A model generated the notes under the pieces. That model worked only from the letters and a program-made list of their open reading frames with translations. It searched no databases and had not been told where the DNA came from. From contig JALGZK010000002.1 in assembly GCA_025774935.1 (NCBI GenBank), positions 186,001-250,000 on the forward strand: a stretch of DNA of 64,000 nt, read 5' to 3'. Position numbers and translations under genes: made by a program. Each line of letters starts with the position of its first letter. Positions within the stretch are counted from its first letter, which is position 1. This document shows, piece after piece, positions 1-42,009 of this stretch. This DNA is from a bacterium. GTDB lineage: Bacteria; Joyebacterota; Joyebacteria; Joyebacterales; Joyebacteraceae.

Positions 1-785
<785 letters not shown>

Positions 786-859
786 CGCAGAAAGGGCCGG
801 GCTGTGGGGCCGTTCCCGCCTGTCGAGCCTCCCCGATTGGCGGCGCAGGCAGAAAGCGC

Positions 860-888
860 TTGACTGACCCGGAGTCAGACGGTAGCGT
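860..888 (+). promoter_or_regulatory. Sigma-70-type promoter of the AsnRS-like gene leader
   Basis: TTGACT (860-865), 17-base spacer, TAGCGT (883-888). The start near 895 falls just ahead of the first regulatory-looking hairpin, so the whole 898-1077 leader would be transcribed. Confidence 0.6.
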
Positions 889-897
889 GCGCTTGTT

Positions 898-927
898 CCT
901 TTAACCGTGGCCCGTGAGCCCGGAAGG
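898..927 (+). promoter_or_regulatory. PyrR-binding-site-like hairpin 1
   Basis: CCTT (898-901) pairs with AAGG (924-927). An asymmetric TTTAA-containing internal loop follows, then an upper stem CCG-t-GGC / GCC-CGG closed by the hexaloop CCGTGA (912-917). The known PyrR anti-antiterminator has the same plan: lower stem, UUUAA-side bulge, upper stem and CNGNGA hexaloop. A Shine-Dalgarno (GGAAGGAG) and an ATG at 936 follow it, then a terminator. The ligand is unknown; PyrR is a hypothesis from shape. Confidence 0.45.
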
Positions 928-935
928 AGAACGGC

Positions 936-1113
936 ATGAGCAGAGCGCGAGACCACCGGTCCAAGAGAACCCCGCACAGACGTGTCGGGGCTCTTTCTTT
1001 CCCGGTCCTGCCTGTCCTCCCCCGGCCTGCGGCCGCCACCTTTAAGACGGCGCCCGTGAGCGCCGAAAGGAGGCAGCATGGCAACCGGAACCCGTATCCT
1101 CGAGCGCGTTGAA
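936..1113 (+). CDS. Possible leader ORF (58 codons)
   Basis: An ATG with a well-placed AAGGAG opens a 58-codon frame that runs across the attenuator-like terminator and overlaps the start of the AsnRS-like gene out of frame. It begins MSRARDHRSKRTPHRR, basic and low complexity, with no recognisable domain. It may be a translated leader peptide or simply the relic of a duplicated 5' end; the hairpin-SD-ATG module recurs at 1039-1080. Confidence 0.2.
963..1000 (+). terminator. Attenuator-like intrinsic terminator in leader
   Basis: AAGAG-aa-CCCCG (963-974) pairs with CGGGG-CTCTT (986-995) and is followed by TCTTT. It lies inside the leader, downstream of the promoter and upstream of the gene, so readthrough here would control expression. 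Confidence 0.6.
1039..1073 (+). promoter_or_regulatory. PyrR-binding-site-like hairpin 2, covering the Shine-Dalgarno
   Basis: CCTTT (1039-1043) pairs with AAAGG (1066-1070). The upper stem GGCGC / GCGCC (1049-1053 and 1060-1064) is closed by the same hexaloop CCGTGA (1054-1059). The lower stem includes the AGGAGG of the gene starting at 1078, so folding would hide the ribosome binding site. Confidence 0.45.
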
Positions 1114-2250
1114 GCTCCGGAGACGGCTGAGTCCCCAAGTGCCGGAGGCGCAGTGGACGCGCGAACGGCGCGCGGGACGACGGACTGGTCTCCCTCTCTC
1201 CACGAACGCATCCACGTCCACAATCGCGTCGTGCACGGCGTCCGGCGATTCCTCCAGGACGAGGGCTACGTCGAGATCCCGGTGCCCGAGCTCACACCGG
1301 CCACGGGCTCGTGCGAGGTCGTGGATTCCATGTTCAGCATGGACTACTTCGGGGCACTGGCGTTCCCGCGCCAGACGGGTCAGCTCTACCTGGAGGAGGT
1401 CGTCGCGAGGGGAGTCGACGCAGTCTACTGCGAGGGCGAGAGCCTTCGCAAGGAACGAAAGGTCGACGCGCGCCACCTCACGGAGTTCAAGCTCATCGAG
1501 ATCGAGAAGCGCGACATGAGCCTCGAGGAGCTGTGCGACTTCCAGGAGAAGCTCGTGAAGGAGGTCGTCTCCTCCCTCAAGGCCGACGAGATCGGACAGG
1601 CCAACGTCGCTCGGCTCCTGCCCGTCCTGCGCTCGGACCATCCGCGACTCACCTACAGGGATGCCCTCAGAATCCTGGGCGGCAGGGGCTTCGCGCTCAC
1701 GTTCGGCGACGACCTGGGGAAGGAAGAGGAAGAGGCCCTCACCGACTACGCCGGCGGCCTTCCAGTTCACGTCACGCACTTCCCCGAGGAACTCAAGTTC
1801 TTCAACATGAAGATCGACCGCGCCGACTTCTCGGTCGTGGAGTGCGTCGACTACATACTCCCGATCTCCGGCGAGACCTTCGGCGGCTCGCTCAGGGAAC
1901 CGGACGTCGGTATCCTCCGCCGCAGACTCCAGACGGGGACGATGTACGGCCACCTGATGAACCGCGCGGCCGAGTTCGCCGAGTTCCGGTGGATGACGGA
2001 TCCTGATGGTCGCGAGGGGCAGTCCGCAGAAGAGCTTGCCGTCCGCTACCAGGAGGGAATCGAGGCGTCGTTCGAGAGCTACCTCGGGCTCTTCGCCGAG
2101 GATCCGACCGAGCGCGCCGGGTTCGGCCTGGGGGTCGCGCGGCTCCTTCAGTTCGTGATGGGATTGGAATCGATCAAGGACGCGGTCGTCTTCCCGATGG
2201 ACCGCACCCGCTTCGGCGGACTGAGTCAGACGATGACCGTGAGCGCGTGA
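1078..2250 (+). CDS. AsnRS-core-like enzyme (archaeal-type asparagine synthetase / asparaginyl-tRNA synthetase paralogue)
   Basis: A 390-residue class II synthetase core related to asparaginyl-tRNA synthetase but without the N-terminal OB-fold anticodon domain. Only about 40 low-complexity residues precede the core. Visible landmarks are TPATGSCE, the motif-2 stretch LRKERKVDARHLTEFKLIE, GETFGGSLREPD, and motif 3 GFGLGVARLLQF. Archaeal homologues of this shape (AS-AR) make asparagine from aspartate and ammonia with ATP, so a tRNA-independent asparagine synthetase is the best guess; a tRNA role is not excluded. The start is fixed by AGGAGG at 1068-1073, inside hairpin 2. Confidence 0.8.
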   Translation: MATGTRILERVEAPETAESPSAGGAVDARTARGTTDWSPSLHERIHVHNRVVHGVRRFLQDEGYVEIPVPELTPATGSCEVVDSMFSMDYFGALAFPRQTGQLYLEEVVARGVDAVYCEGESLRKERKVDARHLTEFKLIEIEKRDMSLEELCDFQEKLVKEVVSSLKADEIGQANVARLLPVLRSDHPRLTYRDALRILGGRGFALTFGDDLGKEEEEALTDYAGGLPVHVTHFPEELKFFNMKIDRADFSVVECVDYILPISGETFGGSLREPDVGILRRRLQTGTMYGHLMNRAAEFAEFRWMTDPDGREGQSAEELAVRYQEGIEASFESYLGLFAEDPTERAGFGLGVARLLQFVMGLESIKDAVVFPMDRTRFGGLSQTMTVSA

Positions 2251-2285
2251 TCGGGCAGTGAAGAAACGCGATCGGAGAGTCCAGG

Positions 2286-2310
2286 GGCCCGGCGTCGGCG
2301 ACGTCGGGCC
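2286..2310. terminator. Hairpin between convergent genes
   Basis: GGCCCGGCGTC / GACGTCGGGCC with a 3-base loop and one mismatch, between two convergent genes. It has no U-tract, so its strength as a terminator is uncertain. Confidence 0.4.
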
Positions 2311-2319
2311 TCGCGTCTG

Positions 2320-3495
2320 CTAGACCGTCCGCTCGGAGACCAGCACGACGTGCCTCTCCGACTCGGACGCTAAGCGGCAGTTTCCGAAGACCCGCCGCAT
2401 GTGCTTCATGACTCCCGTGTAGCGCATGAGCACGAGGTACAGCCGGCCGTGAACGCGGAGGTGGCGGTAGGCTTCGTCGACCAGGGGCAGGAGGACGTCG
2501 CTTCCGGCGTGGAACGGCGGGTTCGAGAGGACGCGGTCGAAGCGCTCGCCCGGGACCGCGTCGAACCGGTCGCCCAGGACGGCCTCGACTCGGGGCTTCC
2601 CGTTCTTGCGAGCGTGGTTCAGGTGGTGCGAACGCACGTTCTTCGCGGCGTACTCGACCGCCCTCGCGTCGCAGTCGACCATCACGACGCGCCCGACCGA
2701 GGCGAGGTGCGCGGCGGCGATGCCAATCGGGCCGTAGCCGCAGCCCACGTCGATCACCGTGTGCCGAGGACGAACGTCGACCGTCTCGATTAGCAGCCGC
2801 GTTCCGTCGTCGAGGTCCTTCCGGGAGAAGATCCCCGCCCTCGTGTGGAACGCGTACCTCCGTCCCCGGAGTTCCGCCTCCACGAGGTGCTCGTACCTCG
2901 AGAGATCGACGGCGTCGGGCGGACACACCGGGCTGCGCTCCGCGCGCATGACCCAGTACCCGCCCGTTCTCGAGAGAACCTTCGCCGGGCCGATCGTCTC
3001 GGTGAGTTTCCGCATGTAACTCTTCGCGCCGCGGCGAACCTTCGCGACGAGGAAGAAGTTCCCTCCGTGGCGCATCTTCGACTGAGCCCGCTCGATCATC
3101 TCGAAGATCGTCTCAGTTCCCTCGTCGACCGGCGGGTTGAGCGCGACGGTATTGAACGAGCCGTTCGGGAAGCGGTTCAGCGTGTGATCCAGAACGACGT
3201 GCGTGCCCTCGGCGTGGTTCCTTCGCACGTTCTCCTGCGCCAGCCTGACCGCCCGGATGTCGGAGTCGACCATCTGGATGTCCAGGTCGGGCGCGGCGTC
3301 GGCGAGCGCGATCCCGACGGCACCGTAGCCGCAACCGTAGTCCAGGATCCTGTCGCCGGGTCTCGGGTTGATCCGGTCAACCAGGAGCCTCGTTGACTTC
3401 GCGATCTTGTCCTTGGAGAAGAGGCCGCCGGCGGAGTGGAAGGTCCGCCTGCGCTGCTTGAGCTCGGAGACGATCTCGTAGGATGGCCTGACCAT
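2320..3495 (-). CDS. Tandem-domain RsmC/RlmG-like methyltransferase
   Basis: 391 residues made of two MTS-type (class I, SAM-dependent) methyltransferase domains, the architecture of the 16S/23S guanine-N2 methyltransferases RsmC and RlmG. Domain 1 (about 1-190) has the SAM loop ILDYGCGYGAVG and catalytic-type NPPV. Domain 2 (about 200-391) has VIDVGCGYGPIG and NPPF. In Escherichia coli RsmC the N-terminal copy has lost its SAM loop; here both look intact. Likely substrate is rRNA, the exact base unknown. It starts at ATG 3495, about 240 bases below a strong promoter with a terminator in between. Confidence 0.8.
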   Translation of the reverse strand: MVRPSYEIVSELKQRRRTFHSAGGLFSKDKIAKSTRLLVDRINPRPGDRILDYGCGYGAVGIALADAAPDLDIQMVDSDIRAVRLAQENVRRNHAEGTHVVLDHTLNRFPNGSFNTVALNPPVDEGTETIFEMIERAQSKMRHGGNFFLVAKVRRGAKSYMRKLTETIGPAKVLSRTGGYWVMRAERSPVCPPDAVDLSRYEHLVEAELRGRRYAFHTRAGIFSRKDLDDGTRLLIETVDVRPRHTVIDVGCGYGPIGIAAAHLASVGRVVMVDCDARAVEYAAKNVRSHHLNHARKNGKPRVEAVLGDRFDAVPGERFDRVLSNPPFHAGSDVLLPLVDEAYRHLRVHGRLYLVLMRYTGVMKHMRRVFGNCRLASESERHVVLVSERTV

Positions 3496-3774: not shown

Positions 3775-3793
3775 GAGGATTCACTGCCGTCGC

Positions 3794-4921
3794 TCATCGC
3801 TTTCGTACGGGATCTCTGCGCGCGTCGGCGCACGTGACCGGTTGTCTCTCGACATCGAAGCCGCCGCTTCCGATCCGCTTCGCGACGAGCGCTCCCCCGA
3901 CGAACATCGGCACGAAGTAGACGACCAGCCGCCAGAGCACGAGCGACACTCCGACGAAGTGCGCGGGAAGGTAGACGGCGAAGAACGCGATGTACCCTCC
4001 TTCCCCGACCGCGAGCGAGCCGGGAGTCGGCGAGGCGAACAGGATGGGCTTCAGGAGGCACTGCAGGATCACGGGCATGGTCCCGGCGCCCTGGTATCCG
4101 AACCCCCACAGGATGACGACGGCGACTACGAACTCCACGATGAACGCGAGAACGATGAGCAGGACGCCCCACATGAGGATGATGCGCCTGTGACGACCGA
4201 GCGCGGAGAGGGCGTCGCGGAAGATGTGGGACTCGTCCTCCAGCATCACGCGGGCCTCCTCGACTCGCTCCGATGCCTTTCCGGGGAGCTTCCTGACGAG
4301 GAACGCCGCGATGCCGTCCACGATCCGATCGAAGAGGGCGGGGAACTTGAGCATGATGACGAGGACGGTGACGATGAGGCAGACGGGGAGCGCGGACAGC
4401 GGGCCCACGATCTTGAGGAACGTCCCGGCCTCGGCGATGCCTTCCCATCTGAGCGCCGCGAGTATCGCCGTCACGACGAGCACGAGGAAGAAGAAGACGC
4501 CCGGGACGAATCCCTTGACGATCACGAGCGCAGTGGCCCAGCCTGCCCGGACGCCTTTTCTCGTGAGGAGGAATCCCTGGTAGGGAACGCCCGCGGCCGA
4601 CAGCGGGATCAGCTGCCCGATGAAGTACGCTTCGAGCGTGAGCTCGAGGGACTCGGTGAGCGTGATCTTCCGGTCCTGAGTGCCGTTGACGAGGATGAGG
4701 AGCCCGAACGCCTCGAGCACCATCCTGATGAACTCGACGGCGAAGAGGAGGGCAACGAAACCGCCCCCGAGCGCCGCGACGCCCCTCCAAGTCTCCTCGC
4801 CAGTCGTTAGCCAGAGCGTCGCGCCAAGGATGACGATGCTCCCGACGACGAAGACGAGAGCGGCGCGGCGGATCTTCGGGCCTTCGAGATGCGGTTGCTG
4901 CAGCTGTGGAGCCTCGTTCAG
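3794..4921 (-). CDS. Flippase-like integral membrane protein (LPG-synthase TM region / UPF0104 family), CTG start suspected
   Basis: A polytopic membrane protein of the AglD/YbhN-like lipid-transporter group, with about eight hydrophobic segments and the family-type stretch YFIGQLIPLSAAGVPYQG. The first ATG in frame is at 4723, but the frame continues upstream with good coding character and a first membrane segment (RRAALVFVVGSIVILGATLW). No ATG, GTG or TTG occurs there before the stop. A CTG at 4921-4919 sits 5 bases after a run of seven G, so I place the start there (375 residues); 4723 is the conservative alternative. Substrate unknown. Confidence 0.65.
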   Translation of the reverse strand: MNEAPQLQQPHLEGPKIRRAALVFVVGSIVILGATLWLTTGEETWRGVAALGGGFVALLFAVEFIRMVLEAFGLLILVNGTQDRKITLTESLELTLEAYFIGQLIPLSAAGVPYQGFLLTRKGVRAGWATALVIVKGFVPGVFFFLVLVVTAILAALRWEGIAEAGTFLKIVGPLSALPVCLIVTVLVIMLKFPALFDRIVDGIAAFLVRKLPGKASERVEEARVMLEDESHIFRDALSALGRHRRIILMWGVLLIVLAFIVEFVVAVVILWGFGYQGAGTMPVILQCLLKPILFASPTPGSLAVGEGGYIAFFAVYLPAHFVGVSLVLWRLVVYFVPMFVGGALVAKRIGSGGFDVERQPVTCADARRDPVRKR

Positions 4922-5204: not shown

Positions 5205-6704
5205 TTAGCGCAGAACGACGCCGCTCCGCGTCAGTGTCTCTCCTCCCGACTCCAGCCTGAAGAAGTAGACGCCCTGTGCGACCTGGACGTTCCTGGAATC
5301 GCGCCCGTTCCACGTCGCCGAGTGCCGCCCGGGCGGAAGCGTGCCGTCCACGAGAACGGTGACGACACGACCGGCGACGTCGTGCACCGTGAGCCGCACG
5401 TCGGAAGGCGCGGGGAGCGAGTACGCTATCGCCGCCCCCTCGCGGGCGGGGTTCGGGAACGGAGTCGCCAGCGAGAGGACGTCTTCTCCGGGCTCGATCC
5501 CGGAGACGACACTCCACGGATCGAACCAGACGAAGTCGCTCACCTCGTCACCCCCGCCTCCGGGGTTGAGCGCGCCGTGGAAGGGACCCGACGAGTCGCC
5601 CCACCAGTTGTACCGCGCATCGACGTTGTTCCTGTTCAGCGTGTGCACGTAGACGGCGGTGCCGTTGTTCAGGAACTCCCCGCTCGTTGCGACCAGCGTC
5701 GAGGTGTCGACGAAGAACCCTCCCGCCGCTCCGTCCGCCGAGTTCCCGACGACCGACGAGCGCCGTACGACCCCGGACGAGACGAGGAGCCACCCTGCGC
5801 CGCCGTCCTCGCCGGCCCAGTTGTTCGCAATCCTGCAGTTGTCGAGTAGGAACGACGAGTCCGAGGCGTAGACGCCTCCGCCCTGGTAGGCCGCTTCACC
5901 CCACGAGATCCGCGAGTCGTGCACGTACACGTTCTGCGAGCTCATGAACACGATCCCGCCGCCGAACTCGGCGGTGTTCCCAGTGACCGTGCAGTCGTCG
6001 ACCGTGCCCCCGCCCGCGATGAAGCAGAGTCCGCCCCCCGATGACGCGGTGTTCCCGGTGACCAGGCAGTCCCGCATCGTCAGGTTCACTTCGTAGTCGA
6101 TGACGACCCCGCCGCCCATGCCTACCGCGACGTTCGAGTCGAAGGTGCAGCGCACCATCGTCGGGTTCGACTTCCAGAGGAAGTAGGCCCCGCCGCCGGC
6201 ACCTGCGCTGTTGCCGACGAACTGGCAGTCCCTGATGAACGGGGATGCGTGTTCGCAGTGGATGGCGCCGCCGTGCAGACCGGCGACGTTGTCGATGAAG
6301 ACCAGGTTCTCGAGGAGTGGCGAACCGTAATGGCAGCGGACCCCGCCGCCGGAGCAGAACGGTCAGACCCCGTCCGCGAAACCGTTCCTGATCGTGAAAC
6401 CCGAGATGACGGTGGTCGTGTCGACGGGGGTGTCGATCCAGATCACGACGTCCTTGTGTCCGCCGTCGAGGATCGTCGACGCTGGACCCTCTTCGCTCAT
6501 GAGCTTCACGCCCGGCTTGTCCGGCCACGTCGTGTTCAGAGGATACGTGCCGGGCGCGACCATGACGGTGTCGTACGCCGACGCGGAGTTCAGTGCCTCT
6601 GCAACAATGAGATAGTCGTCCGGGACACGGACGACGTTCGCCCCCGCGCACAGCGGCGCGAGGACGACGGAGAGCACGATGCCTGCGGCGAGTACCTTGC
6701 TCAC
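5205..6704 (-). pseudogene. Secreted right-handed beta-helix protein with FlgD-like tail, interrupted by in-frame UGA
   Basis: One continuous 500-codon frame on the minus strand broken only by a single TGA at 6365-6363. GTG start at 6704 after GGGAGC, then a signal peptide (about 1-22) and DYLIVAEALNSASAYDTVMVAPGTY, typical of DUF1565/beta-helix proteins. Repeated strands such as GGGLCF and GNTAEFGGG run to about residue 390. The C-terminal domain has PFPNPAREG, VHDVAGRVV, WNGRDSRN, AQGVYFFRLESG and ends RSGVVLR. Upstream of the TGA lies a 114-residue fragment; downstream an ATG at 6158 could give a truncated product without a signal peptide. It could be a recent pseudogene, a sequence error, or read-through. 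Confidence 0.75.
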
Positions 6705-6940: not shown

Positions 6941-6969
6941 TTGCGTGGATGCACAAGAGGTGTTAGCTT
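6941..6969 (+). promoter_or_regulatory. Promoter of the pectate-lyase-like gene
   Basis: TTGCGT (6941-6946), 17-base spacer, TAGCTT (6964-6969), about 90 bases before the ATG at 7064. Confidence 0.45.
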
Positions 6970-7063: not shown

Positions 7064-8158
7064 ATGAGAACGCACACGAAGATCGGGATCGCGGCCGCGG
7101 CGGCCGCCCTCCTCATCCTCGCGCCGACACCATGGTCGAGTCCGGACCTCGGCGTGGTGGAAGGCAACGCGGCCGGCCGGGAATGGCCGCTCCAGGGCTT
7201 CGGCGCCCAGACCACCGGCGGCGCCGGGGGTCAGCAGTACACCGTCACGTCACTCGCCAACTCGGGACCGGGCACCCTTCGGGACGCCGTGTCGTCGCCG
7301 AACCGCGTCATCACGTTCGCGGTCGAGGGCACCATCCGGCTCGAGTCGTCCCTCTACATCACGACGCACCACCTCACGATCGACGCGACCGACGCCCCCG
7401 GTGACGGCATCACGATCACTGCGGCGCACGGAGGAGTGTCGAGCGCGCTCGTGAACATCCGGGGCGCGAACGACGTCATCGTTCGTCATCTCCGCGTGCG
7501 CGACGCCCCCGACCCCGGATCGGGCGACAACATCCGGATCTGGGACGGCGCATACAACATCGTCATCGACCATTGCTCCGTCAGGCGGGGCGGCGACGGC
7601 AACCTCGACATCAGCGACGGTGCCCACGACGTGACCGTGCAGTGGTGCATCATCGCGGACACTGTGAAGAACTCCCTCGTCCGCACGGGTCTCTACAACA
7701 TCTCCTTCCACCACAACCTCTACGTGGACGGGGACGAACGGAACCCGCAGCTCGACGACGCGCACGGCGTGGACATGGTCAACAACGTCATCTACGGGTG
7801 GGCCGGCAACTACGGCACGCGGATCCGGAACGGCTCGAGCGCCAACCTCGTCGCGAACTACTACGTGCCCGGACCCGGAAGCGACCAGTCCGACGCCGTC
7901 CAGATATTCGGGGACGCGGGACCCGTCTACATGGAGGGGAACGTCATCCCGCCCGCGTGCGGAGCGATGGGAACGACCGGATCGAGGCTCCCGGCCCCCG
8001 GCGTGGCGGAGATGACGGCCGAGGAGGCGCTGTACGCCGTCATCGAGGACGCGGGTGCGCACCCTCGCGACGCGGACGACGACGGCTACGCGTCCGTCGT
8101 CGCGGCGAGCCCCGTCGAGAGCACGTCCTGGGGTTCGATCAAGGGGCGGTACCGCTAG
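7064..8158 (+). CDS. Secreted pectate-lyase-like (PL1 fold) protein with SWGSIKGRYR tail
   Basis: 364 residues starting at an ATG three bases after AAGGAGG. A signal peptide (about 1-24) is followed by a parallel beta-helix of pectate lyase family 1 type: GFGAQTTGGAGGQQYTVTSL, NRVITFAVEGTI, the NIRIWDG and IDHCSVRRGGDGNLDISDGA region, SLVRTGLYNISFHHNLY, then VDMVNNVIYGW. PL1 enzymes cleave polygalacturonate by Ca-dependent elimination. The DHCS and HHNLY signatures are present, but the exact catalytic arginine was not verified. It ends SPVESTSWGSIKGRYR, a tail shared with three small secreted proteins near 42-43 kb. Confidence 0.85.
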   Translation: MRTHTKIGIAAAAAALLILAPTPWSSPDLGVVEGNAAGREWPLQGFGAQTTGGAGGQQYTVTSLANSGPGTLRDAVSSPNRVITFAVEGTIRLESSLYITTHHLTIDATDAPGDGITITAAHGGVSSALVNIRGANDVIVRHLRVRDAPDPGSGDNIRIWDGAYNIVIDHCSVRRGGDGNLDISDGAHDVTVQWCIIADTVKNSLVRTGLYNISFHHNLYVDGDERNPQLDDAHGVDMVNNVIYGWAGNYGTRIRNGSSANLVANYYVPGPGSDQSDAVQIFGDAGPVYMEGNVIPPACGAMGTTGSRLPAPGVAEMTAEEALYAVIEDAGAHPRDADDDGYASVVAASPVESTSWGSIKGRYR

Positions 8159-28470: not shown

Positions 28471-31400
28471 CTACTTCAGGAGGACCATCCTCTTCTTGGA
28501 GACGTAGTCCCCCGCCTGCATACGGTACATATAGACGCCGCTGGCCACCTTCTGGCCGTCCTCGTTCGTGCCATCCCAGGCCACCGTCTTGAGCCCGGGC
28601 TCCTGCTCCTCGTCAACGAGGGTCGTGACCAGCTTCCCGGCGATGTTGAAGACGTCGATCCGGACGTGCCCGGCCGCGGGCAGCTGGTAGTGAATCCTCG
28701 TGACGGGATTGAACGGGTTCGGCGCGTTCTGCTTGAGCATAAACTCGGCCACCTCGAGGGGCACGTCGTCGATGCCGGTCGTCCCGACGGACGTGAGATT
28801 GATGTCGTCGACGTACCACCCCTCCTCCGTCACGAAGCCGTCGGAGGCGAACCGGAACCGGACCTGGACCGTCTCACCCTCGTAGGCGGCAAGATCGAAC
28901 CGCTCCTCGCGCCAGTTGATGGCGCCCGACCAGCACGGCGTGCCCACGGGCACGGGGTTCGCGGTGTTGCTGTTCTTGAAGTGGGAGTATCCCGCGTCCG
29001 GATGGATGACCGTCCACGTCGCTCCGGCGTCCGTCGTAATCTGGACGAAGCCGCAGTCCCACGCCGACGTCGGGCTCTCCTCTTCAGCGCGCATGTAGTG
29101 CCAGAACGTGAGCTCACCCTCCGAACCGACGCACATCGGCCTCATGACGAGCGCGCCGTCAGCGGAGCTCGTATAGTCGGAGCTGCCGGCGCCGCCGAAC
29201 TTCCAGCTGTGCGTCGGCGAGTGATTCCGGTACGTCTCAATGTGCCACTGGTCCACGAAGCCCGGCGTCACGTTGTCGTGCGTCCACTCGCCCACTCCGG
29301 ATTCCACGTTGTCCACAAAGTCAGGACCGGCGACCATGATGCTGAACTGGAGGTCGGTCGAGTAACCCCAGTCGGCCGCGATGGAGAGATCGAAGACGAT
29401 CTCGTGGAAACCGGGACAGTCCGGCGCGATCGAGACCGAGAAGTCGGGCGACAGTGTGGCGGTTCCGTCGGGCATCAGGAACACGATCGATGCCTCGCCC
29501 TCGTTCACCGTGACGTACGAGTCGGACGTCGTGAGCGTCGCTGCGATGGCGGAGGCTCTGCTGCTCCCCGCATTGTGAATCGACACTCCGAGCCCCACGA
29601 CCTCGCCCGGCTCCAAGCATCCATTCCCATTCCCGCCGTCGTCAGCGACGACATCATCGAAGAGCACGACCGGCGCGTGAACGAGGATGTTGAAGTCCGA
29701 CTCCCAGACCTCGCGTCCCGAGGAGTCGGAGATCGTGAGCGTGAACGGCAGCACCTCTCCGTCCGCCGCGGCCGAGGAGACCGAGAACGCGTAGCTGCCC
29801 GAGCTCGTGCCGAAGCTCGCCGCCGTGATGTCGCCGAACTCCTGGTAGTCCTCGACGAGCGTGACGTTCCCGTTCGATCCAGTGAGAACCGCCGAGACAC
29901 CGACCGCCGTCTCCGTCCCAACGTTCTCGAGCGTCACGAGGAGCTCGATGCTCTCGCCGGCGTCGACGAGGCCGTTGTTGTTGCCGTTGCTCAGGTCAAA
30001 TCCGTCGTCGTCAACCTCGAACCCGGAGAGCGCTACGTACGGGCCGTCTGCGGGAGCGATCTCGGTCGTTCCGGCGTAGATCAGGTAGTCGTGCGCGGAC
30101 ACGGCGACGTTCAACGTCCCCGGGGCCTGCGCGCTCGGGTGCATCGTCACGGAGCCCGCAGCGTCGGTGAAGCCCACGTCGTAGACGGCGTAGTCGTCCG
30201 TGTAGACGGTGACTCTCGCGCCCTCAACGGGCCCCCTGGTGGCGGACATCACGGTGACGTCCATGTCGGGCTGGCCCACGATGATGCCCGTCGGGTGCGT
30301 CGCGATGAGGTCCGTCGGCTCGGCAGTCCACAGCTCGAGCGCCGGGTCCCCGAAGATGTTCATCTCGTAGTAGACCCACTTGTTCGCGCCGTATGCGATG
30401 GCCCAGAGGACGTCGATCTTGGAGTCGTCGTTCGCATCGCCGATCGGGTAGATCCCCTCGCCGAACATCGCGTCGAAGAACTCGCGGTCGAAGTACTGCG
30501 AAGAGCCGTTCGTGCCGCCCGGGTGGCCCCACCCGTAGCGCGAGTTCGCCGCGAAAGCGACCGCACCGTGGACGTCGGACGTGAACTGCTCCGCGAAGCA
30601 GTCCGAGCCGTACGAGCCGCCGGTACCCCGGTTGTCGTACGAGCCGTTGTAGCACCCCTGGCTGTAGCAGAAGTTCAGGGAGTGGTTCGTTCCGTCGTTG
30701 TCGAACTGGGGGATGTCAGAGTTGTACATCTTCATCGAGTAGGTCACGTTGCAGTGACCGAGGTGGTTCACGATGTTCAGACCGTTCTCCATCAGGCTGA
30801 TGAGCGTGCCCTTCGACCACGTGCTCGTGCGATCGTAGAGCGTGCCGGTGTTCATCGCAGAAGAGGCGAACCCGACCGTCGTGTAGCCGTCGTATGTCCC
30901 CCCGAACAGGATCTGATCCTTGTAGTCGCCGCCGTACGTGAGCGGGCTCGACCACAGGAGCTCGCCCACCATCAGGGCTTCGTCGCACTCGGAGACGATC
31001 GGCTGGGCCTGATAGAGGAGCTGCTTGTTCAGGAAGTTCGTGACCTCCGCCACGGTGTCGGATGCGCCGCGCCCGATTCCGAGCTCCGGATACCAGTCCT
31101 CCTCACCGGCCTCGCCCCAGTAGGCGTCTCCGTCGTTGTTCCAGTTGCCGTCCAAGGCCGAGTAGTACAGGTCCGCAGGGATGTCGTCGTCGATGTCACC
31201 GTACGCGTTTGCGTAGAGGCCTCGATGTGGGATGCCGTTCGCGTCCCTGGCGTCACCGAGGAGAAGCACGTACTCGACGTCCCAGGTGTTGTACGTGTCG
31301 ATGATGAAGTTCCTGATCCGGTCCTGCTCGTCGACACCGCTGTAGTTCGCGTTGATCCACGACTTCAGGAACACGCCGGCCTTGAGGCCGCGGTTCGTCT

Positions 31401-32157
31401 GGAATGCGAGGAAGTCACCGCAGAGGTCGTCCCACATTTCGGTTGTGATGACGAGGTACTTGTAAGCGTCATCGGGGTTGAGCGAACGGCTCGCGACCCT
31501 CACCCTCTCGATGCCCGCGTACGCGACCTGGCCCGACGGGTTGTCGACCATCCGCTCGAGGCGCGCGAGCGTGCGCGCGTCGTTCCGAATCATGGTCTCG
31601 GTCGCCCTGAGCTCACCCGTGTCCACGGCCGTCGTGATCTCGACTTCGAAGCTCCGGTAGTACGAAAGCGCTCCAGTCTCGGGCTCGAACTCGACCGGAT
31701 GGAGCGCGAGGTTCGCCACCGAGTAGCCGCGGTAGCGGCCGACCGCGGGCGCGTCGTGGAGTCTTCCCGGGAACACCCGGGCGGAGTCGTAGTCGGGCTC
31801 CGCCATCTCGATCGGGCCCTCGTGTGAGAGCGGATACTGACTCTGTCCCGGCTCGACGAGGTAGCCGTCCCCGAGCGTGACCATCTCACCGGGGATGACG
31901 CGTACGTCGGTGACCAGTTCGCCCGGCGGCAGCAGGAGGCGCGCGCCGACCATCGGAAGCACGGGATCTCCCGGGGCGCCGAAGCTCCACGCACCCTCGA
32001 TCGTGACCCTGTGGTATCCGTCGATCTCCTTCACGACGGGCTCGGCAAAGTCGTAGTGCTGCGTCACGACCCCGGCTGCCGAGGTTCCCGCGACCAGAAC
32101 AACACCGAGGATCCCGAAGACCACCGGTGCAAGACACTTCCTCACGGCCCTTCGCAT
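28471..32157 (-). CDS. Secreted gingipain-like C25 peptidase with FlgD-like C-terminal tail
   Basis: 1228 residues. ATG at 32157 after GGGGGAAGGAG; signal peptide (about 10-30). A propeptide-like region precedes a C25 catalytic domain (about 230-640): YVLLLGDARDANG, NIVNHLGHCN with His468 (or 465), and CYSQGCYNGSYD with Cys502, a His-Cys spacing like gingipain R. CARDB-like beta domains follow (EVDDDGFDLSNGNNNGLVD and a second copy), then a MAM/jelly-roll (WHIETYRNHSPTHSWKFGG), and finally QNAPNPFNPVTRIHYQLPA, FNIAGKLV, WDGTNEDG, VASGVYMYRMQ ending KRMVLLK. An extracellular cysteine protease exported by a tail-dependent route. Confidence 0.9.
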   Translation of the reverse strand: MRRAVRKCLAPVVFGILGVVLVAGTSAAGVVTQHYDFAEPVVKEIDGYHRVTIEGAWSFGAPGDPVLPMVGARLLLPPGELVTDVRVIPGEMVTLGDGYLVEPGQSQYPLSHEGPIEMAEPDYDSARVFPGRLHDAPAVGRYRGYSVANLALHPVEFEPETGALSYYRSFEVEITTAVDTGELRATETMIRNDARTLARLERMVDNPSGQVAYAGIERVRVASRSLNPDDAYKYLVITTEMWDDLCGDFLAFQTNRGLKAGVFLKSWINANYSGVDEQDRIRNFIIDTYNTWDVEYVLLLGDARDANGIPHRGLYANAYGDIDDDIPADLYYSALDGNWNNDGDAYWGEAGEEDWYPELGIGRGASDTVAEVTNFLNKQLLYQAQPIVSECDEALMVGELLWSSPLTYGGDYKDQILFGGTYDGYTTVGFASSAMNTGTLYDRTSTWSKGTLISLMENGLNIVNHLGHCNVTYSMKMYNSDIPQFDNDGTNHSLNFCYSQGCYNGSYDNRGTGGSYGSDCFAEQFTSDVHGAVAFAANSRYGWGHPGGTNGSSQYFDREFFDAMFGEGIYPIGDANDDSKIDVLWAIAYGANKWVYYEMNIFGDPALELWTAEPTDLIATHPTGIIVGQPDMDVTVMSATRGPVEGARVTVYTDDYAVYDVGFTDAAGSVTMHPSAQAPGTLNVAVSAHDYLIYAGTTEIAPADGPYVALSGFEVDDDGFDLSNGNNNGLVDAGESIELLVTLENVGTETAVGVSAVLTGSNGNVTLVEDYQEFGDITAASFGTSSGSYAFSVSSAAADGEVLPFTLTISDSSGREVWESDFNILVHAPVVLFDDVVADDGGNGNGCLEPGEVVGLGVSIHNAGSSRASAIAATLTTSDSYVTVNEGEASIVFLMPDGTATLSPDFSVSIAPDCPGFHEIVFDLSIAADWGYSTDLQFSIMVAGPDFVDNVESGVGEWTHDNVTPGFVDQWHIETYRNHSPTHSWKFGGAGSSDYTSSADGALVMRPMCVGSEGELTFWHYMRAEEESPTSAWDCGFVQITTDAGATWTVIHPDAGYSHFKNSNTANPVPVGTPCWSGAINWREERFDLAAYEGETVQVRFRFASDGFVTEEGWYVDDINLTSVGTTGIDDVPLEVAEFMLKQNAPNPFNPVTRIHYQLPAAGHVRIDVFNIAGKLVTTLVDEEQEPGLKTVAWDGTNEDGQKVASGVYMYRMQAGDYVSKKRMVLLK

Positions 32158-32231
32158 GCCGTACTCCTTCCCCCCAGGCTCGACACCGCGCGCCAGTGAA
32201 CGGTGAGTCACCCGCAGACGCAATGGGGCAA

Positions 32232-32300
32232 CTACGCCCCGGTGATAGTTCGCAAAGCAAACCAATCCCGAGCCGGTTTCAGAACCGGTCGGCTATTCAT
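32232..32300 (-). CDS. Possible 22-residue upstream ORF
   Basis: In the C25 leader, GGGGAGGAG is 8 bases before an ATG (32300-32298) opening MNSRPVLKPARDWFALRT plus four more residues and TAG. No homologue recalled. It could be a regulatory peptide or chance. Confidence 0.25.
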   Translation of the reverse strand: MNSRPVLKPARDWFALRTITGA

Positions 32301-33475: not shown

Positions 33476-36205
33476 ATGAAGCGCACGTGGGTCACGCTTG
33501 CTGTTCTCCTGTGTTTGCTCCCAGTGACTGCCTCCGCGAACGTGCTGACCGAAGCCGATGCCGCGGTGGCGGCTCTGGATCTGGCTGCGGACGTCGGCGC
33601 GTATACGCGCGCCCACCCGGACGCAGCCGGCGCCTTCCCGGCGTGGACGTCCGCGGGGTTCCCGGCCGTCCCGATCCTCGTGTACTCCTACCCCGCCCTC
33701 GAACCTGCGTACTACATGGTGGTCATCCAGAGCGAGCCGGCGACCGTAGTGACGCTCGACCCGTTCGACGGCGACTGGCACGGCTACGGAGAGGTGCCGG
33801 ACGGCGACCCGTTCCCTCGCGTGTCGCGCGCGCGAGCCGCGACCCTCTTCGCCGAGGAACTCCGCCGACCGTGTTCCGAGAAGTCGGTCCGTGCAGTCGA
33901 GATGCCTGACCGCCGTCTCTACTGGCACGTGAAACCACACACGAAGGGCTCGAACATCGAGCTTCTGCTGCCGCTCGACGAGGAAGGCCCCGTCCGCACG
34001 AGCGCGGACATCACTCCGGCGGGCGACGTAGTCGAGGACTCCACGGATCCCGACGGGACCAGGGACAGCGGCGACCCGGACCGCTGGGGCAGCCGGAATC
34101 CGAACTTCCCGAAGGGCAGGGATGGAACGTACCCGCCAAGCTACGACATCCCAGACGTCCCACACCACTTCCAGCAGACGAACATCTTCTGCGGCCCCGC
34201 GTCGCTCGAGATGCTCTTCGACTACTGGGGCCCGGACATCGAGCAGTTCGACGTTGCGGCCGTCGCGGACACGCGCCCGGAGATCGGCGGCACCGGGACC
34301 GCGGACCTCGTCCGCGCGGCCCGCTTCAGCGTCATCAGTACGGCCGTCCAGAATCCCGACCTCCACGGGTACAACGAGCGACGGTATGGGTACGCCGCTG
34401 TCGTCAACTCGTGGGACGCACCGGACGACTTCCCGAACCGCTACGACGATCTCAAGATCCTCGTGAGCTCGGACGAGCCGGTCATGCTCCTCATGTGGTT
34501 CACCGAGGCCTACCAGTTCCGGCACTACCGCGTGGTCAAGGGCTACGACGACGGCCTCGACGTGTTCATCGTTCACGACCCGTGGTACTCGCCCCCGTAC
34601 TGGGGACCCGACTTCCACTTCAACCAGGAGTTCTTCGTCGACGACATGTGGGACTGCGGCCGACAGAGGTGGGGGATGTTCACTGCACCGCTCGACGTCA
34701 TCGTGTCCGTGTCCCCGGAGGTCGCTCCTGCCGAGGAGTTCACGGTCGTCGCTTCGGTGATCCACACGTGTCCCGACCCGTTCGAAGGCACCCGGCCGCT
34801 CGCGAACGCAGAGGCGACGATCTCGCTCGCAAGCGGGCTCGCGCTGGCGCCCGGCGAGTCCCCTACACAGCCCGTGGTCGGCGTCGGCATTCCGGGCACC
34901 GTCGGCACGGCGACCTGGCAGGTCGTCGCGGGAGCACTCGCTCAAGACCTTGGGATCGACGTCTTCTCACGAGCGCTCATCACCGCGACGGGCGGGTCGG
35001 CGGGCACGTACTCCGACTCGCTCGCTGGAACGGGCGCGACGACCGTCGACATCGTGCCGGATCCCCTGACGCTCGTCAGGGTCGACCCGTCAGGCGACGG
35101 TCACGTCCGGACGATCCAGGAAGGTCTCTACATCGCGGGCGACGGTGACACGGTCGTCGTGGCGCCCGCCACCTACAGCGGCGCGATGAACCGCGGCCTC
35201 GACTTCGGGGGACGCGGAGTGAGCCTGCTCGCCGAGGGCGGACGCTCCGAGACGGTGATCGACTGCGGTGGTGAGGATCGCGGGTTCGACTTCGACGGCG
35301 GAGAGGGTGCGTCGGCGATCGTCGACGGGTTCACCGTCGTGAACGGAGCTCCGGACGGGTTCGGCGGCGGAATCCGCTTCACGAACGGGTCCTCGCCCAC
35401 CGTGCGGAACTCCGCGTTCATCGGCAATACCTGCGGGTTCCTCGGCGGCGGGATCTACTGTGACGGAGGATCCTCCCCGACCCTCGAGTACCTGCTCGTG
35501 AGCGACAACTCCTCGCTCCTCGGCTCGGGGCTCTACTGCAAGGAAGGCGCGGCGCCAACGGTGTCCCACTGTACGTTCGTCGGGAACTCGGGACACCAGG
35601 TGACGAGCGTCGACGCGTCGCCAATGATCACGAACTCGATCATCGCGTTCAGCCCTGCCGGCAGCGCCATGACCTGCGGCGGCACGGCGGACCCCACGGT
35701 CACGCTCAGCTGCGTCTACGGGAACGACGGCGGCGACGAGCTCTGCGGGGGCCATTACGACAACATCTCCGCCGACCCGCTCTTCTGCGACCTGGCCGGC
35801 GGTGTGTTCACGCTCCACGACGACTCGCCGTGTCTGCCCGAGAATAACGTCTGGTTCGAGTCGATCGGAGTGTTCGGCGCCGGCGGGTGCGGTACTTCCA
35901 CGGGCGTCCATGGGGACGAAACCGGCTCCGTGGCCTCTCTCCGCGCCAGCCCAAACCCGTTCCGGCGCCGGACAGATTTCGAGTTCGCCGCGCCGAGCGC
36001 AACTGGAAGCGCGCTCGTCGCCGTCTACAACCTGAAGGGACAGAGAGTGAGAACCCTGCTCAGGGGCGCCGTGCCCGAGGGCCGGCAGACTCTGAGCTGG
36101 GACGGAACAGACGATGCGGGGCGGCGGGTGGCGTCGGGGGTCTACTTCTGCACGGCCGCGTTCGGTAATGAGGAGGTCTCTCACAAGGTCGTGCTGCTGC
36201 GCTAG
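33476..36205 (+). CDS. Secreted C39-peptidase-like / beta-helix / FlgD-tail fusion
   Basis: 909 residues. Signal peptide (about 1-22). A papain-like C39 domain (about 225-390) has IFCGPASLEMLFDYWG with Cys239, QFRHYRVVKGYDDG with His350 and VHDPWY with Asp368, a complete triad of the peptidase C39/bacteriocin-processing type. A beta-sandwich linker follows, then a DUF1565/right-handed beta-helix (about 535-790: GDTVVVAPATYSG, repeated GGGI and NGSSPTVRNSAF). The tail has RASPNPFRRRTDF, YNLKGQRV, WDGTDDAG, VASGVYFC and ends VVLLR. It probably cleaves or binds peptides outside the cell; target unknown. Confidence 0.85.
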   Translation: MKRTWVTLAVLLCLLPVTASANVLTEADAAVAALDLAADVGAYTRAHPDAAGAFPAWTSAGFPAVPILVYSYPALEPAYYMVVIQSEPATVVTLDPFDGDWHGYGEVPDGDPFPRVSRARAATLFAEELRRPCSEKSVRAVEMPDRRLYWHVKPHTKGSNIELLLPLDEEGPVRTSADITPAGDVVEDSTDPDGTRDSGDPDRWGSRNPNFPKGRDGTYPPSYDIPDVPHHFQQTNIFCGPASLEMLFDYWGPDIEQFDVAAVADTRPEIGGTGTADLVRAARFSVISTAVQNPDLHGYNERRYGYAAVVNSWDAPDDFPNRYDDLKILVSSDEPVMLLMWFTEAYQFRHYRVVKGYDDGLDVFIVHDPWYSPPYWGPDFHFNQEFFVDDMWDCGRQRWGMFTAPLDVIVSVSPEVAPAEEFTVVASVIHTCPDPFEGTRPLANAEATISLASGLALAPGESPTQPVVGVGIPGTVGTATWQVVAGALAQDLGIDVFSRALITATGGSAGTYSDSLAGTGATTVDIVPDPLTLVRVDPSGDGHVRTIQEGLYIAGDGDTVVVAPATYSGAMNRGLDFGGRGVSLLAEGGRSETVIDCGGEDRGFDFDGGEGASAIVDGFTVVNGAPDGFGGGIRFTNGSSPTVRNSAFIGNTCGFLGGGIYCDGGSSPTLEYLLVSDNSSLLGSGLYCKEGAAPTVSHCTFVGNSGHQVTSVDASPMITNSIIAFSPAGSAMTCGGTADPTVTLSCVYGNDGGDELCGGHYDNISADPLFCDLAGGVFTLHDDSPCLPENNVWFESIGVFGAGGCGTSTGVHGDETGSVASLRASPNPFRRRTDFEFAAPSATGSALVAVYNLKGQRVRTLLRGAVPEGRQTLSWDGTDDAGRRVASGVYFCTAAFGNEEVSHKVVLLR

Positions 36206-38633: not shown

Positions 38634-41006
38634 CTAGCGCTTGCGTCGGGTCCGGGTCGACTTCCGGGCCTTCGGCTTCTTCTTCACGACCTTCTTCTTC
38701 GCGGTCTTCCTCTTCGCCGGCTTCTTCTTCACGACCTTCTTCTTCGCGGTCTTCCTCTTCGCCGGCTTCTTCTTCACGACCTTCTTCTTCGTGGCCTTCT
38801 TCTTGGCCGGCTTCTTCTTCACGACCTTCTTCTTCGTGGCCTTCTTCTTGGCCGGCTTCTTCTTCACAGCCTTCTTCTTGGTGGTCTTCTTCTTGGCCGG
38901 CTTCTTTTTCACGACCTTCTTCTTCGCGATCTTCTTCTTCACCGGCTTCTTGGCGGCCTTCTTCGCCTTCGCCTCGGCTCCCGAGACCAACCGCTCGACC
39001 TTCAGGTCGTAGAGCCGCTTCGCCTCCGCGGCGATATGCTCGGCCGAGACCTCAAACTCCTTCACGAGCTCCCACGGCGCGCCCGACTCGCCGAAGCGGT
39101 CCTGGACGCCGACCATCCCGATGATGGTCGGCTTGCCGTAGACCCTCGCCGACTTGCCGATCGCCGCGGCGACCTGGTTCCCGAACCCGCCGACCTGATG
39201 TTCCTCCGCGGTGACGACGACGCCCGTCTCGGCCGCCGCCTTCACGATCGCCGTCGTATCGAGCGGCTTCACGCTGTGGACGTTCAGGATCCGGGTCTCT
39301 ATGTCGAACTCCTCCTTCAGGATCCACGCCGCCCGCATCGCTTCAGGCACCGAGGGTCCGCACGCGATGATCGAGATGTCCTCGCTCTCGGTCTTGTACT
39401 GCGACGCGAGCTTGTGCTCGAACGCATCCTTGAAGCTCGCCTTGGCGCCCCGGAAGCGGATGACGTTGGCCTTCCCGTACTTGTACGGGCTCTTCTTGTC
39501 GGTGACCACCGGGGTCGCCTCACGCGCGAACCGCACGTACTTGGGACCCTTCACCTTGAAGAGCATGTGCTCGGTTGCGCGCTTCGTCTCGACTGCGTCA
39601 CACGGCACCTCGACGTGCATGTTCGGGAGCCCGCACATTTGATAGAGCTCCTCGAGGGCCTGGTGCGTCGCTCCGTCGGGTCCTACCGAAACACCACCGT
39701 GCGCTCCGGCGATCATCACGTTGAAGTCGCCGTAACAGACCGTCGTTCGGAGCTGGTCGAGGTTCCTGCCAGACGCGAAGACGCCGTAGGTCCCGAAGAC
39801 CGGGAGCTTGCCCTCCTTCGCGAGGCCCGCGCAGACGCCCGTCCCCGACTGCTCGGCGATGCCCATCGAGAACCAGCGGTCCATTCTCTCGGGCTGGCCC
39901 TCGTAGAACTGGCTGATCGTGATCGACCCGGAGATGTCGGCGCCGAGGGCGCAGACCTTCTTGTTGTCGCCGTGCTCCGCGAGCGCGCGGCCGAACCCTT
40001 TCCGGGTCGGGTCCATGTCGACCTTCATGTTCTTCGCCGCGTTCCAGAAGTAGTCCTTCGAGAACTTGGGCTGCTTCGCCTCGAGTTCCCTCGTCGCCTT
40101 CTTCTGGTAGTCATCGGCCTTCTTGAAGAGCTTCTTGACGGGGAGCTTCTTGTCGAGGCCGAGCTGCTTGAGGCCGTCCCACATCTGCTCCTCGTTCGGC
40201 GGCTTTCCGTGCCAGCCGGCGACGTCTTCCATGAAGTCGACGCCCTTGCCCTTCACAGTATCGGCGAGGAGCAGCGTCGGCTTGCCCTTCTTCTTCGCCG
40301 CCTTCCTGAACCCGTCCAGGATCGAGTCCATGTCGTGGCCGTCGATCTTGATGACGTGCCAGCCGAAAGCCTTGTACTTGTCGACGAGCGGCTCGACGTT
40401 CATGACGTCCTCGACCCACCCGTCGATCTGAAGGCGGTTCTTGTCGATGATCCCGCAGAGATTGTCGAGCTTGTAGTGCCCGGCCTCCATGACCGCTTCC
40501 CAGATCTGACCTTCCTGCTGCTCGCCGTCACCCATGAGGCAGTAGACGCGGTAATCCTTCTCGTCGAGGCCCGCGGCGAGTGCGATGCCGACCGCGATCG
40601 AGAGGCCCTGGCCGAGCGAACCCGTCGACGCTTCGACGCCGTGGAGTTTCGGCCAGTGCGGATGCCCCTGGAACGGAGCGTAGAGCTTACGCAGCGTCAC
40701 GACGTCTTCAACATTGTAGTAGCCGGCCATGCCGAGGCCGAGGTAGAGCGACGGAGCCTTGTGACCGGCCGACCAGATGATCCGGTCGCGGTCCGGCCAG
40801 GCTGCGTTCTGCGGATCGTGGTTCGCGACGTGGAGATAGAGCGCCGCGGTGATGTCCATGATCGACAGCGTTCCGCCCGAGTGTCCCGACTTCGCCGCGG
40901 CGAGGGACACAAGGTTGTAGCCGCGCATCAGGTTTGCGGCCTCCTTGAGATCCTCGACACTGTAGTCCTTGCGGATCTTCCCGGTCTTCGAGTTGACGAT
41001 CGGCAT
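38634..41006 (-). CDS. tkt: Transketolase with histone-H1-like Lys/Pro/Ala repeat tail
   Basis: 790 residues. Residues 1 to about 665 form one full transketolase: SLAAAKSGHSGGTLS, the thiamine-diphosphate motif GDGEQQEGQIWEA, SGSITISQFYEGQPERM, GIAEQSGTGVCAGLA, VPCDAVETKRATEHM, and the C-terminal HSVKPLDTTAIV. It moves two-carbon ketol units in the pentose-phosphate pathway. A linker GAEAKAKKAAK leads into 105 residues of seven 15-mers (KKPAKKKATKKKVVK type), like eukaryotic H1 or bacterial HctB/AlgP tails. Normal transketolases stop before this. RBS GAGGAGG. The tail suggests DNA, RNA or polyphosphate binding. Confidence 0.93.
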   Translation of the reverse strand: MPIVNSKTGKIRKDYSVEDLKEAANLMRGYNLVSLAAAKSGHSGGTLSIMDITAALYLHVANHDPQNAAWPDRDRIIWSAGHKAPSLYLGLGMAGYYNVEDVVTLRKLYAPFQGHPHWPKLHGVEASTGSLGQGLSIAVGIALAAGLDEKDYRVYCLMGDGEQQEGQIWEAVMEAGHYKLDNLCGIIDKNRLQIDGWVEDVMNVEPLVDKYKAFGWHVIKIDGHDMDSILDGFRKAAKKKGKPTLLLADTVKGKGVDFMEDVAGWHGKPPNEEQMWDGLKQLGLDKKLPVKKLFKKADDYQKKATRELEAKQPKFSKDYFWNAAKNMKVDMDPTRKGFGRALAEHGDNKKVCALGADISGSITISQFYEGQPERMDRWFSMGIAEQSGTGVCAGLAKEGKLPVFGTYGVFASGRNLDQLRTTVCYGDFNVMIAGAHGGVSVGPDGATHQALEELYQMCGLPNMHVEVPCDAVETKRATEHMLFKVKGPKYVRFAREATPVVTDKKSPYKYGKANVIRFRGAKASFKDAFEHKLASQYKTESEDISIIACGPSVPEAMRAAWILKEEFDIETRILNVHSVKPLDTTAIVKAAAETGVVVTAEEHQVGGFGNQVAAAIGKSARVYGKPTIIGMVGVQDRFGESGAPWELVKEFEVSAEHIAAEAKRLYDLKVERLVSGAEAKAKKAAKKPVKKKIAKKKVVKKKPAKKKTTKKKAVKKKPAKKKATKKKVVKKKPAKKKATKKKVVKKKPAKRKTAKKKVVKKKPAKRKTAKKKVVKKKPKARKSTRTRRKR
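38637..38951 (-). repeat. Seven 45-bp coding repeats (KKPAKKKxxKKKVVK)
   Basis: The end of the transketolase gene consists of seven tandem 45-bp units encoding a 15-residue Lys-rich unit. Units 3 and 4 are identical in protein (KKPAKKKATKKKVVK), as are 5 and 6 (KKPAKRKTAKKKVVK). The first has KKPVKKKIAKKKVVK and the last turns to Arg (KKPKARKSTRTRRKR). On the plus strand it appears as CTTCTTC-rich DNA. Confidence 0.95.
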
Positions 41007-41358: not shown

Positions 41359-42009
41359 ATGTCTGTGCGAGGCCATCGCTTTCCGTGCGTGCTTGCCTTG
41401 CTCCTCGTCGTGGGCATGGCAGCGGCCGGGGCCGGGTCGCCGAGGGACGCCGAGCTCTTCTGGGACGACGGGAGCGCGGAGGGTGGCTTCGCCGAGCAGC
41501 AGGGCAGGCGGCTCGCCGTCCGGTTCCAGGCGCCGCCCGGCGCGTGGTGGCTGACCCACGTGAGACTCTACATCATGGATGACGGCCTCGAGATCCCAGG
41601 GCAGCCCGGGGTACCGACGACCCGGCTCGTCACGATCGAGGTTCGTGAGGACACAGGAACGGGGCCAGGAGGCGTGGCGGGCAGCGGGACCGCTTACCAG
41701 TGGCACGTCGAGCCCGGGTACGAGGAAGACGCGTGGCTCGACTTCGTCCCGCCGGAGCCTGTTGATCTTGCGGACGAAGAGTCCTTCCCGGGAGGCTCGT
41801 TCTACGTTGGAATCGAGTGGGAGCATCGAACGAACCCCGTAATCGGGCTCGATCTCGACCCGCCGATTGCCGGGGAGTCGTTGTACTGGGACTGGACCTC
41901 GTGGACCGTGGTCGACACTGCGAATGTGATGATACGTGCGGTGGTGTCGGAGACCGACACCCCCGCCGAGCGTGAGTCGTGGGGCCGCGTCAAGTCCGTC
42001 TATCGCTGA
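41359..42009 (+). CDS. Secreted hypothetical protein A with SWGRVKSVYR tail
   Basis: 216 residues. Signal peptide (about 1-26, VLALLLVVGMAAAGAG). The mature part begins ELFWDDGSAEGGFAEQQGRRLAVRF, like beta-sandwich domains found in secreted proteins of candidate phyla, and is otherwise unrecognised. It ends TPAERESWGRVKSVYR, matching the other tail-bearing proteins. Ribosome site TCACGGAGGTGTCCTC before ATG 41359 is nearly copied before protein B. First gene after the 41.2-kb promoter. Confidence 0.75.
   Translation: MSVRGHRFPCVLALLLVVGMAAAGAGSPRDAELFWDDGSAEGGFAEQQGRRLAVRFQAPPGAWWLTHVRLYIMDDGLEIPGQPGVPTTRLVTIEVREDTGTGPGGVAGSGTAYQWHVEPGYEEDAWLDFVPPEPVDLADEESFPGGSFYVGIEWEHRTNPVIGLDLDPPIAGESLYWDWTSWTVVDTANVMIRAVVSETDTPAERESWGRVKSVYR

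Follow-up and report, generated by a model that had tools for sequence, protein, structure and literature searches.

C-terminal sorting tags expose secretion pathways: PEP-CTERM led to the exosortase, and the domain of the type IX secretion system (T9SS) to the Por system. All T9SS signals described so far consist of folded domains (PMC10202324, PMC11285876). The C-terminal domain (CTD) of type A (TIGR04183/PF18962; here FlgD_ig, PF13860) is an Ig-like beta-sandwich of 70–100 residues whose folded architecture is required (PMC11285876), and the CTDs of Prevotella intermedia, with 40–55 residues, three beta-strands and the motifs B, D and E, are the shortest T9SS signals that we found reported (PMC11969387). 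The last 22 residues of HBP35 are enough for the export of GFP (reviewed in PMC10202324); hence, a very short T9SS signal is not excluded. Outside the Bacteroidota, T9SS has been suggested for other phyla of the FCB group (PMC11285876).

The tags PEP-CTERM, GlyGly-CTERM and MYXO-CTERM, with their respective partners exosortase, rhombosortase and myxosortase, place one short motif on many unrelated exported proteins and were discovered by the same logic as is followed here (PMC1569441, PMC3237569, PMC11980579). Each such tag consists of a signature with a transmembrane helix and a basic terminus, and its reader is a membrane protease or transpeptidase. The LPXTG/sortase system likewise uses a C-terminal signal on secreted proteins. 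Encapsulin cargo-loading peptides and microcompartment encapsulation peptides are short C-terminal elements on a flexible linker that dock unrelated cargo.

Here we analyze a tail of 17 residues, of the type SPVExxTWGxIKxLYR (WG tail), which ends four proteins encoded in the window, i.e. the whole stretch of 64,000 nucleotides under analysis. Like the type A CTD, it is found at the C-terminus of signal-peptide proteins in bacteria of the FCB group, in dozens of copies per genome, often behind beta-helix and peptidase passengers, and basic ends are possible in both; yet it is predicted to be helical, and in place of an Ig-like beta-sandwich or a sheet of at least three strands over 40–100 residues it is modelled as an isolated helix of low pLDDT behind a linker. 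With the CTDs of P. intermedia it would share the character of a minimised T9SS signal, but it has neither their length nor their motifs. The same choice-of-anchor passengers precede CTERM tags and the WG tail; however, no transmembrane helix and basic cluster follow the motif, since the tailed proteins end at it or a few residues past it. An LPXTG-like motif and a membrane anchor are missing as well, and the organisms with the tail are, by prediction, Gram-negative (PMC11323493). Finally, the cargos of encapsulation peptides are cytosolic, whereas WG-tailed proteins carry Sec signal peptides. By the tests made, the tail belongs to neither the CTERM nor the T9SS tags, although its way of working resembles theirs.

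A C-terminal tail on unrelated secreted proteins

The tailed genes of the window, and the genes without a WG tail that serve for comparison, are the following:

7064–8158, + strand: pectate-lyase-like secreted protein with tail (Pectate_lyase_4, 2.8e-07; NF041900, 2.1e-22)
8108–8155, + strand: tail SPVESTSWGSIKGRYR at the end of the pectate-lyase-like ORF, stop codon at 8156–8158
41359–42009, + strand: secreted tailed protein without a Pfam family, opening a row of three consecutive tail genes
41959–42006, + strand: tail TPAERESWGRVKSVYR in a real ORF, matched by the profile
42043–42483, + strand: small secreted tailed protein without a Pfam family
42433–42480, + strand: tail SPVDRSTWGTIKALYR in a real ORF, matched by the profile
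42549–43097, + strand: small secreted tailed protein, third of the three consecutive tail genes
43032–43094, + strand: tail TPVLASSWGSIKALYDGRSPP, a variant running past the core
28471–32265, − strand: Peptidase_C25 protein (C25, 1.8e-48; FlgD_ig, 1.2e-12), whose C-terminal domain is of the FlgD/type-A-like T9SS type; comparison
33476–36205, + strand: FlgD-type-tailed protein with a beta-helix region (FlgD_ig, 7.1e-11); comparison
5205–6158, − strand: beta-helix protein with FlgD-type tail, whose N-terminal part lies in a different frame (6363–6704); comparison

A preliminary description, made from sequence alone, had claimed that four window proteins share a C-terminal block. This holds, and all four tails lie in real ORFs of the + strand; only the span given for the first (8111–8158) was one codon off and included the stop codon. 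The pectate-lyase-like ORF has an ATG start with a signal peptide, and a longer form begins with TTG at 6941; a relative in locus L177 is 64.5% identical and retains the tail as SPVKPTSWGQIKAMYR. Two paralogues of the third consecutive gene in L074 and its relatives in L182 and L144 are likewise tailed. Elsewhere in the window, a transketolase-like protein (38634–41006, − strand) carries a long, lysine-rich C-terminal repeat (KKKPAKKKATKKKVV...), which is unusual for this enzyme.

The same description counted four carriers; the phenomenon is far larger. In the genome that contains the window (3.24 Mb, 40 contigs), a profile built from the four tails yields 103 matches at E<=10. About 100 are convincing, and at nearly all matches the reading frame closes at the tail. 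From the stretches around these matches we recovered 97 tailed ORFs; their consensus is [ST]PVExx[ST]WGxIK[AGS]LYR, and the majority end exactly there. At the DNA level, the pattern [ST]WGx[IV]Kxx[YF]R-stop matches the genome 62 times and its reversal 0 times. A six-frame scan of 441 kb – stretches taken mostly around matches, not the whole genome – finds 86 of 89 occurrences of [STA]WGx[IVLM]Kxx[YF] at most 10 residues from a stop codon. A simple heuristic predicts a signal peptide in 85 of the 97 tailed ORFs and in four more at a later in-frame start (about 89/97); several of the remaining ones look frameshifted or truncated. When one matched rule is applied to ORFs of the same stretches, signal peptides are predicted for 44 of 48 tailed ORFs vs 70 of 270 others. 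The matches are thus overwhelmingly C-terminal and on signal-peptide proteins; a lack of such enrichment would have refuted the earlier inference of a tag. Locus L076:7065-8226 contains an overlapping pair of tailed ORFs in separate frames, one ending in WGVIKALYR and the other in WGAIKGSYRNGNRRDRR; their in-frame starts with a signal peptide point to neighbouring paralogues whose C-terminal overlap is short.

The bodies in front of the tail are diverse. Among 89 tail proteins, Pfam assigns beta-helix (14) and InhA-like MAM (8) domains, besides CBM_20, CHRD, cohesin, PKD, LTD, plastocyanin and others, and the NCBIfam families among the carriers include choice_anch_V, choice_anch_J, MXAN_6652 and DVUA0089. 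Choice-of-anchor families, as their names also indicate, elsewhere precede differing known sorting signals; therefore, the tail occupies the position of a sorting signal. The fold of one family of small tailed proteins (four in tandem in L075:1054-5263; also L079, L064 and L191:3788-4636) is predicted to be closest to cohesins, which make up nearly all of the best Foldseek matches (E 8.6e-4); a separate tailed protein contains a clear Pfam cohesin domain.

Could the tail simply be inherited with its carriers? According to this rival explanation, it is the end of a single domain that is widespread, or a piece of DNA that has spread recently, and some carriers are indeed paralogues. However, without signal peptide and tail, the 97 bodies fall into 52 similarity groups, the largest with 16 members, that show no body similarity to each other. 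The four window bodies, trimmed in the same way, never match each other by BLASTP better than E=2.5, which refutes common descent for these proteins; full-length homology would have refuted the earlier inference of an export or attachment tag, and it was not seen. Across the 97 ORFs, each of the four Gly codons and of the six Arg codons occurs at the conserved sites, and 96 of the 97 cores of thirty bases are distinct; because of this diversity, recent DNA duplication is ruled out as a source of the tail, as are chance and whole-protein common descent. A modelled structure (see below) also puts the tail apart from the body, and next to nothing remains in favour of this rival.

Anatomy of the tail and selection on its core

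With Trp as position 0, the consensus reads [ST](-7) P V E x [AS] [TS] W(0) G x I K [AGS] L Y R(8). The Trp and the Lys occur without exception in the 97 tailed ORFs; since the recovery pattern demanded Trp and permitted Arg in place of Lys, only the Lys count is informative. The final residue is R in 78 of 97, and the remainder have a different last residue or run on for a few more. Endings can be specific to a genome, as in two Krumholzibacteriota genomes: the final R is missing in G086 (IKALY-stop), and E replaces it in G154. Because R is absent or replaced in related genomes, the C-terminal residue itself is probably not read by a receptor.

This variation also bears on another idea, namely that the tail is a proteolysis or quality-control tag for a periplasmic protease. 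In its favour, the tail is short and C-terminal. Against it, a last residue that may be R, none, E or an extension of several residues argues against a PDZ-type reading of the C-terminus, the carriers are stable-looking secreted enzymes and domains, the tail is conserved over three phyla, and the destruction of about 100 tagged proteins is implausible. We regard this explanation as very unlikely.

Of the core positions, 2 and 6 alone are under loose constraint. Their spacing of four is what the exposed side of a helix would give, and the AlphaFold model is helical, hence a helix is preferred over a strand. That model, of one tailed protein (16 sequences aligned), predicts a confident beta-sandwich body, a linker at about 176–188 and a separate helix at 189–202, the latter with low confidence (pLDDT about 43–50). 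For the window family, too few sequences could be aligned (mean pLDDT 38.8) and no usable model was obtained. The helicity of the tail thus remains a prediction that rests on a single model and on periodicity. A beta-strand resembling CTD motif E was considered as well; hydrophobic moments do not decide the matter (0.375 for helix vs 0.371 for strand), and the helix is preferred.

In 60 pairs with relatives elsewhere, identity is 0.72 in the core vs 0.35 in the 12 residues before the cap; for pairs whose bodies are less than 50% identical, the core retains 0.66 vs 0.20 in the adjacent linker. Random tailed proteins share a core identity of 0.64, which matches the value for diverged pairs; the core is therefore at its limit of constraint. 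The bodies are unrelated and secreted, the core is conserved over the linker, and the codons are diverse. Together, these observations show protein-level selection on the C-terminal element.

A helix that stands alone and is conserved on most faces has the look of a docking motif, and the tail might be an assembly peptide that docks proteins on a shared extracellular or periplasmic scaffold in the manner of dockerins or encapsulation peptides. The tailed protein with a Pfam cohesin and the cohesin-like fold of the L075 family also speak for this. On the other hand, no scaffold protein has been identified, the cohesin-like proteins bear the tail themselves rather than being without it, and the choice-of-anchor domains point to sorting. 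Dockerins are calcium-binding domains of about 60–70 residues, and the tail is unlike them. In our view, an assembly function is unlikely.

Taxonomic distribution and type IX secretion

The phylum of the source genome is inferred to be Ca. Effluviviacota, represented here by 20 genomes of one family. All 20 contain tails, 32–104 each. Tails are also present in 40 of 47 Eisenbacteria genomes (up to 26) and in 80 of 80 Krumholzibacteriota genomes (1–52 each). The reversed tail model finds none in the same 80 Krumholzibacteriota genomes, hence false positives are negligible at that threshold. With this control, the tail fulfils the general criterion for a sorting signal, i.e. a short, lineage-restricted homology at the C-termini of many exported proteins that are otherwise unrelated. 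In a pattern scan that covered about 85,000 species genomes, at least 113 stretches matched; the records are labelled Eisenbacteria, Krumholzibacteria, Effluviviaceae, Aegiribacteria, Gemmatimonadota/Gemmatimonadetes or unnamed bacteria, and no others. As this number is a lower bound, the absence of the tail from other lineages is suggested by the scan, but not shown.

Our search for T9SS parts was confined to SprA, PorU and PorV; PorK/L/M/N were outside it. All three are encoded in the source genome above curated cut-offs (given in brackets): SprA/Sov with 529 bits (200), PorU with 531 (420) and PorV_fam with 231 (90). The PorU gene adjoins the PorV gene, and the PorV family has about 12 members. 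The tailed proteins therefore meet two criteria for T9SS cargo, i.e. a Sec signal peptide and an encoded machinery. Within Ca. Effluviviacota, SprA is found in 17 of 20 genomes and PorV_fam in 20 of 20, with 7–15 copies each. PorU and PorV form a run in L257:336-11425 together with an M6-like protein that has a T9SS tail, two small proteins putatively of the outer membrane and a protein with NHL repeats; a similar run occurs in G010 (L259).

The same genome uses two classes of tails, which show no similarity to each other and are never found together. At E<=0.01, none of 89 tail proteins has a C-terminal match to TIGR04183/PF18962 or PF13585, and the distinction from the FlgD-like tail, already drawn in the preliminary description, is borne out: 0/89 match FlgD_ig, Por_Secre_tail or CHU_C, while FlgD-tailed proteins of the same genome match FlgD_ig and some Por_Secre_tail too. 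Nevertheless, related passengers carry either the WG tail or the FlgD/type-A-like T9SS tail. The WG-tailed beta-helix protein of L107 and the FlgD-tailed window protein at 33476–36205 are 33.5% identical over 334 aa (E 8.7e-44), and in L191 a WG-tailed gene (3788–4636) is adjacent to one for a 981-residue FlgD-tailed protein with a related domain (419–3364). This interchange is shown.

Gingipain-like C25 peptidases are strongly expanded in Ca. Effluviviacota (8–30 per genome). As tail carriers they can be rejected: in their stretches, nearly all large ORFs end in a FlgD-type tail, e.g. SGVYFxRL...RKMVLLK, and not in a WG tail. Nor are they tail-specific neighbours, as their adjacency to tail genes is no higher than expected in a rough count.

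A PorV-family gene lies divergent from one or two genes of a WG-tail family in 11 genomes of six genera (L122:1302-4045; L300-L302, L307, L309-L311, L313-L315); some neighbours are cut at a contig end, and the arrangement is missing in genus g5. We give this adjacency little weight, because it involves one passenger family, and about 12 PorV and about 100 tail genes permit chance; an ancestral chance adjacency of some PorV gene with some tail gene is possible and not improbable. The copy in the source genome itself (L122) is a fused duplicate of lipoprotein-like character that has retained a leftover tail, ETSWGGLKHIF, in its interior.

As predictors of the tail, both components were rejected. 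SprA is present in 29 of 35 Eisenbacteria genomes with at least three tails vs 10 of 12 with fewer, and PorV-family copy number shows no clear relation, since the tail-free genome G061 has 14 copies; PorV_fam is found in 47 of 47 Eisenbacteria genomes, with or without tails. SprA and PorV being near-universal in Eisenbacteria regardless of tails, T9SS is not sufficient for the tail.

A proposed role in sorting

Neither Pfam nor NCBIfam (release 20.0, June 2026) contains a model of the tail, and a PDB search retrieved only chance internal matches (E about 1). In the literature searched, the motif string occurs in one unrelated paper only; we found no paper that connects C-terminal sorting signals with Eisenbacteria or type IX secretion with Krumholzibacteria, and type IX goes unmentioned in the Effluviviacota paper. 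The earlier statements that the tail has no described counterpart among sorting signals and that no hydrophobic helix follows it, as one does in PEP-CTERM and MYXO-CTERM, both stand. The tail is very likely a genuine C-terminal signal for targeting or docking that has not been described before. A second tag for export or surface attachment, as was proposed, is supported; export or attachment itself, location and cleavage are still inferred, and a partner enzyme is unproven.

We propose the following model. Tailed proteins would first cross the inner membrane via Sec. The tail, on a flexible linker behind the folded passenger, would form an amphipathic helix with the cap [ST]PVE and the core TWGxIKxLYR. 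An outer-membrane receptor would grip most faces of this helix from the periplasmic side, sparing core positions 2 and 6, and would pass the protein on to outer-membrane passage or surface attachment. This receptor would probably be a T9SS-associated PorV-family protein. Receptor, passage, cleavage and surface location are all inferred, and there is no direct evidence of passage. The tail shows neither fold nor sequence of known T9SS CTDs, which counts against the T9SS reading. Whether T9SS or its PorV-family proteins handle the tail is a question on which we find the evidence not quite evenly balanced, with slightly less than even odds in favour, the receptor being inferred.

The main rival is a dedicated sorting or anchoring system outside T9SS, e.g. 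an unknown outer-membrane receptor or a sortase-like enzyme, that would retain, cleave or attach Sec-exported proteins. It is favoured by the coexistence of two tail classes in one genome with zero overlap, and by Eisenbacteria, where tail number ranges from 0 to 26 though nearly all genomes encode SprA and PorV-family proteins; an additional factor is therefore needed. Against it, no candidate gene was found, with only the stretches around matches and the T9SS genes considered, and the passenger swap with the T9SS-type tail suggests a common destination. On balance we lean away from such a system.

A bolder reading seems likely to us: the tail represents a new class of Gram-negative export or surface-sorting signal, i.e. 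a helical element of 17 residues, present in at least three phyla and with a receptor of its own. It would be either a fourth, minimal T9SS signal that dispenses with a folded domain or the label of a sorting pathway at the outer membrane that has yet to be described. In the first case, it would answer what the smallest signal is that the machine reads, and would bear on the open question of how T9SS recognizes different signals (PMC10202324); if a dedicated non-T9SS pathway were proven, the tail would be categorically new. As a transplantable peptide of 17 residues, it is simple to test and of potential use for surface display. In Ca. Effluviviacota, each genome has dozens of exported proteins with the tail, and smaller sets are present in two other phyla that have hardly been studied; since most of these proteins are of unknown function, the tail would make the secretome of these bacteria directly readable.
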